From a virus: 64,000 nt of DNA. A program made the position numbers and the translations under genes. Below are positions 43,324 to 45,410 of this stretch, piece by piece (the stretch's first letter is position 1; each line of letters begins with the position of its first letter). Location: positions 1-64,000 of the IMG/VR virus record IMGVR_UViG_3300044859_002163; one strand, 5' to 3'. The notes beneath the pieces were generated by a model. The model did no database searches. It had not been told where the DNA came from and worked only from the letters and a program-made list of their open reading frames with translations.

Positions 43324-43655
43324 ACCTGTATTCTCACGTTCGCGTTAAGTGTACGCATTGCATCTATCGATGTTCGTATAGATAGTAGTGCTTCTCGCTT
43401 TGTTTTAACAAGAGCCTCTGCAATTTTGTATTCGTAGTTAACATCATCAAGCTTGTAGTCTGCCCAAGCCTCACGCTCTTTGATTGAGCCAGAGCGAGCA
43501 AGATATTCCTTTGCCCAGTTCGACTTGTACCTTGCTTCTTTCTTAGCCGCTTCAACGGCGAGGACTTCAAATGCTTCAGTTTCTTTTTCTAGTTCCCCAA
43601 CGAGCCTGAGCATCTCTTGTTCAATTTCAACCTGACTAATAGGTGCGCTTCTCAT
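43320..43655 (-). CDS. Small coiled-coil protein
   Basis: A 111-aa protein of heptad-rich helices (LVGELEKETEAFEVLAVEAA). The ATG at 43655 overlaps the RuvC stop (ATGA) with AAAGGCAG upstream; the longer reading to 43724 would lie in the RuvC gene. It overlaps the ParB-like gene too. Function unknown. Confidence 0.55.
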   Translation of the reverse strand: MRSAPISQVEIEQEMLRLVGELEKETEAFEVLAVEAAKKEARYKSNWAKEYLARSGSIKEREAWADYKLDDVNYEYKIAEALVKTKREALLSIRTSIDAMRTLNANVRIQV

Positions 43656-44182
43656 GTACTGCCTTTCACTTGTAGTGGGCTCCAATCTACTTTGTCTAAG
43701 GCTGACATATTCGTTGCTGGCCAAGAAAACCTGGGTTTTTCCATAAAAGCGAGAGCCATCTCTTCAAGAATCCAAGCATCGCATTTGTCGTCTGCCCCAG
43801 GGTTCCCCCATACGATTCCGGTCTTGGCGGAAATAGAAGAAATGACTTCGTTCTTTGAAGCGTTGCCTTTTCCGGTGGCGAACTTGGCTCTACATGTTGG
43901 CGGTATTTCCACGAATGGCACGCCTAGTTCAAACAGGCAAAGTCTGACGACTCCACCAAGTTCCCCAATAGAAAACGCCTGTCCGCTGCGAGATGCGAAG
44001 GAATAACCCTCAACGATGACTACGTCTATATCATTTTCCAAAACTATTTTTTTAATTGTTTCAGAAATTGTCTTTAGCCTTTGGACGCCTTTTTCACTGG
44101 TTGAGATGACGCCCGTATCACCGTTATGAGAATACCCAGTGGACGTTAAGGAAAGGTCAAGCCCAAGTAGATTGATATTCAC
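43652..44182 (-). CDS. RuvC-like Holliday junction resolvase
   Basis: A 176-aa protein with the RNase H-fold nuclease residues: LLGLDLSLTSTGY (Asp8), VVIVEGYSF (Glu), and DDKCDAWILEEMAL (two Asp). It is likely used to resolve branched DNA before packaging. Start codon GTG. The candidate RNA region lies directly upstream. Confidence 0.85.
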   Translation of the reverse strand: MNINLLGLDLSLTSTGYSHNGDTGVISTSEKGVQRLKTISETIKKIVLENDIDVVIVEGYSFASRSGQAFSIGELGGVVRLCLFELGVPFVEIPPTCRAKFATGKGNASKNEVISSISAKTGIVWGNPGADDKCDAWILEEMALAFMEKPRFSWPATNMSALDKVDWSPLQVKGST

Positions 44183-44330: not shown

Positions 44331-44429
44331 CTCGGAGTAGATATTGGCTAGATGGAAAAAGAGTAACACTATTTATTAAAGCTAAATAGTAAAGCATTTA
44401 TTATTAAAAATTAAGCAGATGGGGACAAA

Positions 44430-44520
44430 CATGCAAAAGCCGAGTGAGTCTCCCCACCCGACTTTCGCACCTATAACGGTCCTAAGGATTACTACAGTAC
44501 ACCCGGAATAAATACTGAAA
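44430..44520 (-). ncRNA. Candidate small RNA antisense to 23S rRNA helix 69-71
   Basis: A minus-strand transcript from the TATAAT at 44527-44532 would end after the hairpin at 44437-44464 (perfect 10-bp stem, 8-nt loop, two G-U pairs) followed by TTTT. It would contain the reverse complement of CTATAACGGTCCTAAGG (44471-44487), which is identical to the core of the 23S rRNA helix 69-71 region and of the I-CeuI recognition site. The match is exact over 17 nt. Whether the RNA is made and whether it acts as antisense or decoy is not known. Confidence 0.4.
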
Positions 44521-44526
44521 GTGTTA

Positions 44527-44532
44527 ATTATA
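44527..44532 (-). promoter_or_regulatory. Candidate -10 box (TATAAT, minus strand)
   Basis: Perfect TATAAT on the minus strand in an AT-rich setting, no good -35. It would drive the candidate small RNA. Confidence 0.4.
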
Positions 44533-44612: not shown

Positions 44613-44969
44613 ATGTCAACAGCAGCACTCGCCCCAACAACCATCACAATGAACATTGCTGGTGGACTATCAACATCCAGCATCGTTACAATGGCTATGC
44701 CGTTTGCTGGTTCTGTCACCGGCGCTTACGTAGCCGTAACCACAGCCCCAGTTGGTTCAGCTCTTACAGCAGACTTGAAAATTGGTTCTAACGTCGCAGC
44801 AGCGTTCTCGATTGCTGCTGCTGGAACATCGGACGAAGGAACACTTTCGGCTCAAGCATCAAACCTTTACTTCACAAAAGGTGCACTCGTCAGCCTCGAC
44901 GTATCGGCTGTCGGTTCCAGCACTGCTGGTTCGAACATGACAGTTGCTTTCACTGTAGTTGAAGGCTAA
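44613..44969 (+). CDS. Monocistronic small structural-type protein (118 aa)
   Basis: Ala, Thr, Ser and Gly make up most of this beta-rich protein (GSVTGAYVAVTTAPVGS, then FTKGALVSLDVSAVG). No Cys, Trp or Arg. It has its own promoter box, a strong ribosome-binding site and a strong terminator, and stands alone on the plus strand between minus-strand operons. This looks like a highly expressed virion protein such as a capsid decoration or head fibre. Family not recognised. Confidence 0.7.
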   Translation: MSTAALAPTTITMNIAGGLSTSSIVTMAMPFAGSVTGAYVAVTTAPVGSALTADLKIGSNVAAAFSIAAAGTSDEGTLSAQASNLYFTKGALVSLDVSAVGSSTAGSNMTVAFTVVEG

Positions 44970-45035: not shown

Positions 45036-45410
45036 CTAACGTTCCCAACCATGTTTTGCTAAACCCAAATCAAAAGCAAGTTGTGGGTAGTTGCCAATCC
45101 TGGTGTGACACGGCCTGCAAACTGCAAGAACATTATCCTCATCAAGTATCGAACCACCCTGTGAGCGACGAATTATTTCGTGAACATCCGTACTATTTTT
45201 TTGGATAAAAGTTACTTTTTCATCATGCTGTGCGAAAACTTTGCAAGCCTGACAGAACGGTCGTTCGCTAAGAATCTTCTCCACAAATGGACGCCGTAGT
45301 TCATAAAGCTCAGATTGTTTTTTGCTTCTTTTCTTTATGGAACCAGTCCTCTTTGGGGGAGCGCCTCTTTTGGGCGGTTTACCCCTCTTGAGTGGCTTTC
45401 TAGGTTTCAC
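45036..45410 (-). CDS. HNH endonuclease
   Basis: A 124-aa protein with a basic N-terminus (KPLKRGKPPKRGAPPKR) and an HNH core: FCQACK, DVHEIIRRSQGG and NVLAVCRPCHTRIG with two CxxC zinc pairs. HNH genes near TerL are common and often contribute to packaging; it could also be a free-standing homing nuclease. Confidence 0.85.
   Translation of the reverse strand: MKPRKPLKRGKPPKRGAPPKRTGSIKKRSKKQSELYELRRPFVEKILSERPFCQACKVFAQHDEKVTFIQKNSTDVHEIIRRSQGGSILDEDNVLAVCRPCHTRIGNYPQLAFDLGLAKHGWER

Follow-up and report, generated by a model that had tools for sequence, protein, structure and literature searches.

The minus strand of the window, by which we mean the whole 64,000-nucleotide stretch of virus DNA analysed here, carries a 17-nt segment that complements 23S rRNA 1914-1930 (E. 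coli numbering) without a mismatch, and at least eight phage groups with differing neighbour genes and differing extensions carry complements to one and the same rRNA patch (23S ~1906-1937, sometimes 1961-1976). Sequence comparison across phage groups shows the element itself, how it is conserved and oriented, and that it complements this single patch. We consider it likely that the RNA has been selected to pair with helix 69 (H69) of 23S rRNA. The overall explanation that we favour, on balance and by a modest margin, is an H69-pairing phage RNA that hinders 50S joining or maturation.

On the plus strand, the segment reads CTATAACGGTCCTAAGG (44471-44487). It is present in single copy in the window and in the complete 68,955-base virus record, and the chance expectation for the window 17-mer is 0.05 when up to 3 mismatches are allowed. 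The exact 17-mer occurs in 117 IMG/VR contigs, among which reading of the flanks identified L092 as the sole true 23S gene, leaving 116 non-rRNA contigs. An equally conserved control 17-mer of 23S rRNA, from the sarcin-ricin loop, had no match in IMG/VR. Scans with 15 one- or two-base variants of the 17-mer (two positions) returned ~11 chance-like matches in total by our own reading of the listed matches, or ~0.7 each, suggesting a background below one match per 17-mer; the remaining matches of these scans all came from a single phage family whose hairpin covaries (the capsid class, below). The flanks of the window locus are unrelated to rRNA, and no Rfam covariance model, for rRNA or otherwise, reached its gathering cut-off in the window (nine relative loci gave tRNAs only). 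We therefore rejected a 23S rRNA gene or gene fragment, since the rRNA sequence does not continue on either side of the 17-mer. In summary, the preliminary description was correct that the 17-mer is identical to conserved 23S sequence, that a random identity is very unlikely and that this is not a piece of an rRNA gene. The conservation in related phages that it proposed as a check was found, in many groups, and its small RNA antisense to 23S is supported by the comparison, with transcription, ribosome binding and effect remaining inferences.

Table 1 Features of the window locus (positions are those of the window).
Feature	Position	Strand	Remark
RuvC-like resolvase gene	43652..44182	-	Downstream; syntenic anchor of class 1
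Predicted anti-23S small RNA, ~60 nt	44427..44487	-	Predicted start to end of hairpin tail; inferred from the -10-like element and the hairpin
Hairpin, 18 bp with 4-nt loop	44431..44470	-	Immediately follows the antisense segment on its 3' side; terminator or stability hairpin
Anti-23S segment 5'-CCTTAGGACCGTTATAG-3'	44471..44487	-	Complements the 3' half of H69 and the single-stranded CCUAAGG; invariant or wobble-changed in relatives
-10-like hexamer TACTGT	44494..44499	-	12 nt ahead of the first C of the antisense 17-mer
Upstream stretch TTAACACTTTCAGTATTTA	44509..44527	-	Probable promoter part; once in window; common to nearest relatives only
118-aa ORF	44613..44969	+	Unknown family, without PHROG or Pfam match; separates the HNH gene from the site
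HNH endonuclease gene	45036..45410	-	In relatives, stop codon 12-62 nt ahead of the antisense segment

The window shares its layout (HNH gene, site, RuvC-like gene) with the relatives that we designate class 1 (Table 1). When 25 non-redundant class-1 representatives were aligned on the motif, 20 of them had the -10-box pattern TAnnnT at a distance of exactly 12 nt upstream of the first C in CCTTAGG, and no other offset was found in more than 5; their upstream regions contain no consistently placed -35 box. The minus-strand TATAAT that the preliminary description took for the promoter is present (44532-44527) but is not conserved in relatives, and the conserved element is the TACTGT hexamer, so this claim is not supported. 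The predicted hairpin with a TTTT downstream held as far as the hairpin is concerned; the TTTT sits within the 3' arm and the tail consists of no more than GUUUG, the U-tract being weak. A terminator scan of the window left the hairpin unscored and gave no match. Strong U-tracts do occur in some relatives, namely L007 (TTTTTT) and the capsid class. The 64-nt window RNA folds far better than shuffled sequences (z = -5.4), and its predicted energy of interaction with 23S is -57.9 versus a shuffle mean of -41.3. Our best guess for the window class, inferred from sequence without any expression data, is a stand-alone RNA of ~60 nt that starts near 44487 and has the antisense segment at its 5' end; the likely RNA runs from 44487 to about 44427, and the ~90-nt transcript proposed at the outset is not supported. 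The preliminary description also held that relatives keeping the hairpin and losing the 17-mer would refute the small RNA. We observed the opposite, as the hairpin sequence shifts between relatives and the 17-mer stays.

Complements to the same patch recur next to HNH and RuvC genes, major capsid protein genes, ribonucleotide reductase genes, terminase/portal genes and tRNA clusters, and in Vibrio phages, and in many phage groups the complementary stretch measures 17-26 nt. In class 1, the 17 nt are followed by a hairpin whose sequence differs between groups, and the 5' half of H69 is not represented. In the capsid class, CCTTAGG is followed by a hairpin with the loop GTTATAGTTAC (the complement of the H69 loop) and then by a terminator, and the stop codon of the major capsid protein gene lies 0-15 nt before the site in every lineage seen. 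Three further loci (L014, L034 and L060) have an upstream TATACT, a short hairpin and then the 17-mer. For this class we noted (L034:5400-5500, minus strand) that the anti-23S segment is paired by a tail, GUAGCGGUCUUUU, which would make the antisense part of an extended terminator stem, possibly a self-inhibited form.

Other groups extend the complement. L022, and L433 with three like loci, carry the element downstream of a ribonucleotide reductase gene, where the anti-H69 segment is accompanied by (T)TCGCTAC in the terminator loop, complementary to 1930-1937; a second segment antisense to 1930-1937 is found in L022, L433, L431 and the Vibrio phages. Loci adjoining tRNA genes (L430, L435 and L438) contain GTGCAGG+GCTACCTTgGGACCGTTATAGTTACGGC, the antisense of 1907-1934 joined to that of 1961-1967, and the complement in L430 and L435 omits exactly the H71 hairpin. 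The Vibrio phages qdvp001, R16F, 10AMN, PWH3a-P1 and P018-4 share a 24-nt complement with two differences, both G-U compatible, and have TCGCTACC downstream; VnaP and IBT_VpB-34 harbour more diverged copies of this element. The terminase/portal locus L431 carries TTCGCTACC. The complement reaches further upstream into 1931-1936 in L107 (23 nt) and L001 (25 nt), and L006 has an additional ACGCCATTCGT complementary to 1966-1976. As a separate observation, Staphylococcus phage SpP (L163 ~1501-1517) and L437:3692-3708 contain an H69-only complement, GACCGTTATAGTTACGG, followed by a hairpin. These loci could represent a further class in staphylococcal phages, a possibility we raise only tentatively given that the 17-nt match in SpP could be due to chance.

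Several observations bear on which strand is the RNA. In class 1, the HNH and RuvC-like genes are both on the minus strand, the direction of the antisense, and the neighbour genes of the Vibrio-phage, ribonucleotide reductase, terminase and tRNA-cluster loci likewise run the same way as the antisense strand; only at a few loci is this not so (L001, and part of the neighbours of L107 and L034). Since the neighbour genes mostly run in this direction, the antisense strand is the likely RNA. A hairpin or terminator is found on the 3' side of the antisense segment. The arms of the capsid-class hairpin differ in sequence and length yet covary: the mean folding energy is -9.0 kcal/mol for the real hairpins versus -7.0 +/- 0.28 kcal/mol after swapping of 3' arms, and the real value was not attained in any of 300 permutations. 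Of 35 capsid-class and related hairpins, 22 are more stable when folded as the antisense strand (Wilcoxon p = 0.01, uncorrected for relatedness). A tally by eye of the transitions seen in class 1, in Vibrio phages, in L060 and in L430, without correction for phylogeny, gives nine that are G-U compatible in the antisense direction and one that is not. Changes that do not fit wobble pairing are a G to A in VnaP, the transversions C1 to A in class 1 and G to T in L330, and some capsid-class loop changes (L218, L211). The middle of the capsid-class element follows its own hairpin and not 23S, suggesting that pairing with 23S in this class would be split or loop-loop.

We did not detect any DNA relative of the window locus among 50,697 phage records, nor a class-1 site across 84,980 prokaryote genomes. 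The only RuvC-like relative found in these prokaryote genomes is on an Acidimicrobiia MAG contig, where the HNH gene is followed immediately by the RuvC-like gene and the site is missing. The 23S rRNA of Acidimicrobiia matches the 17-mer (GGTCC) in 20 of the 22 genomes with a match, and the phylum of this MAG overall also has CCATCC and CCGTCC. An actinobacterial host is thus possible and consistent with the data, though not proven, and the exact 23S sequence of the host is likewise undetermined.

Two features of the surrounding locus are reported in their own right. At the spot of the 118-aa ORF, other relatives have different plus-strand ORFs or none, and the position therefore has the look of an exchange site. 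The RuvC-like gene is preceded, at window ~44345-44200 on the minus strand, by a second conserved structured RNA with the layout GGCRGGUGGUC...UCUAGUAG-loop-CUACGGCAAA...ACCC[G/A]CC...GG[C/T]GGGU-UUUU. ACCC[G/A]CC has two possible partners, the upstream GGYRGGUGG and a stretch within the terminator, so that this RNA resembles a transcription attenuator or a riboswitch-like leader. It is also present in relatives without the anti-23S site (L272, L304 and L311) and has no Rfam match. A likeness of this RNA (44345-44205) to 23S H71 was considered and dropped, because the alignment shows an attenuator-like leader.

In the mechanism that we propose, the phage would transcribe a small RNA leftwards from ~44487 on the minus strand, with the 5' end CCUUAGGACCGUUAUAG followed by a stable hairpin. 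Its 17 nt would pair with host 23S 1914-1930, a stretch in H69 and in the strand that runs on to H71. Once bound to a free or immature 50S subunit, the RNA would impede either 30S joining at bridge B2a or late 50S maturation, and host ribosome activity or production would be dampened during infection. H69 forms intersubunit bridge B2a. With DMS modification at A1912 or A1918, 70S particles no longer form (PMC1190176), ObgE displaces H69 and acts as an anti-association factor (PMC4028186), and a PNA targeted to H69 is inhibitory to E. coli growth (PMC7038079). Given the role of H69 in the bridge and these data, an RNA on 1906-1937 would be expected to keep 50S from 70S. Transcription, pairing with rRNA in the cell and an inhibitory effect are inferred, and that the effect is specifically a block of subunit joining or maturation is, taken alone, slightly more doubtful than probable. 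Against the mechanism stand the burial of the H69 site in the 70S of the mature ribosome, the harm that ribosome blocking would do to the phage itself, and the expectation that the capsid-gene version appears late.

Other readings of the data deserve consideration. A chance match or rRNA contamination has in its favour only that one of the 117 contigs, L092, is a genuine 23S gene, and is all but excluded by the 116 non-rRNA contexts, the recurring architecture and the empty control. It is possible that the RNA pairs with H69 and protects or retunes ribosomes, either by masking the patch from abortive-infection nucleases or modifying enzymes or by biasing ribosomes toward phage mRNA. The same complementarity data fit this alternative, the phage itself depends on functioning ribosomes, and high amounts of the capsid-gene version are expected late in infection; on the other hand, no host nuclease is known to act exactly at 1906-1937, and the H69 site is buried in 70S, which points to free or immature 50S as the target. 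A less likely alternative is action in cis, in which an antisense in the 3' UTR would tether or recycle 50S on the phage mRNA after termination and boost translation or stability. The capsid-class position just past the stop codon in every lineage seen, and the position of the element after an HNH or ribonucleotide reductase gene in other classes, would suit this. However, the window class has its own promoter-like element at a fixed distance, and other elements lie in tRNA clusters or between non-coding stretches. Blocking, masking and cis tethering cannot be separated by sequence.

Two alternatives that dispense with an antisense RNA appear very unlikely. In the first, a plus-strand RNA would copy the H69 loop and titrate an rRNA-binding protein, a modifying enzyme (RluD, RlmH) or a toxin. 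The capsid-class plus strand would indeed fold into an H69-like hairpin with the exact loop GUAACUAUAAC; however, the neighbour genes, promoter-like elements and terminators mostly oppose the plus strand, the G-U pairs favour the antisense strand, and class 1 lacks the 5' half of H69. The other places function in the DNA itself, as the target of an I-CeuI-like homing endonuclease or as an attachment or recombination site matching the 23S gene. The I-CeuI site has this 17-mer at its core, and in class 1 an HNH gene adjoins the segment. Yet in the capsid class the middle of the site is remodelled, in length as well as in sequence, through arms that covary, other classes have no adjacent HNH gene or integrase, no element interrupts the site, and the version that skips H71 would be senseless as a DNA site. 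A shared DNA site would thus not explain the groups, given the H71-skipping form and the covariation of the arms.

The proposed RNA has partial parallels among known systems. Synthetic PNA against H69 (Kulik et al. 2017; reviewed in PMC7038079) addresses the same helix by base pairing and inhibits growth, but it is a man-made oligomer, with no natural counterpart described in the papers that we found. ObgE and ribosome recycling factor (PMC4028186) likewise act on H69 and bridge B2a and keep the subunits apart; they are cellular proteins and not base-pairing RNAs. With trans-acting bacterial and phage sRNAs the predicted RNA shares its shortness, an accessible complementary segment, a terminator-like hairpin and a promoter-like element or 3' UTR origin, whereas those sRNAs target mRNA and the predicted target here is the functional core of 23S rRNA. 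The I-CeuI site, the insertion site of a 23S group I intron, shares the 17-bp sequence but differs in that the phage sites show no intron or LAGLIDADG gene and the capsid class varies the site by covarying arms; most groups have no adjacent homing endonuclease gene.

The rnaC and rnaD of phage T4 (species 1 and 2 RNA) are stable phage RNAs in a tRNA cluster, the setting also of the L438 and Vibrio-phage elements, and differ in having no anti-H69 segment. T4 rnaD (L439:1554-1672; T-even relatives L440-L446) contains an invariant TCGCTACC, complementary to 23S 1929-1936, the segment also found in the Vibrio phages and L431. This 8-nt match may be due to chance because the whole 5' domain is conserved, and we set rnaC and rnaD aside as class members, treating the single match merely as a weak lead. 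The literature searched, which did not extend to most subscription papers, yielded no phage RNA antisense to rRNA, and Rfam has no matching family. We rate the element as categorically new in target and strategy, assembled from ordinary sRNA parts.

Since it occurs in numerous unrelated phages, among them culturable Vibrio phages, the element would be open to a direct test with cultured phages. The bolder reading, to which we lean slightly, is that widespread and repeatedly evolved phage RNAs base-pair with the 23S core (1906-1937 and 1961-1976) and attack or retune it in the course of host takeover. If true, H69/H71 would be a natural antisense target as well as an already drug-like PNA target, and phages would possess a new mode of host takeover that uses RNA instead of protein to block or redirect host protein synthesis. 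Phages would, in that case, control ribosomes by a short, evolvable antisense RNA directed at a spot that ranks among the most conserved in biology.
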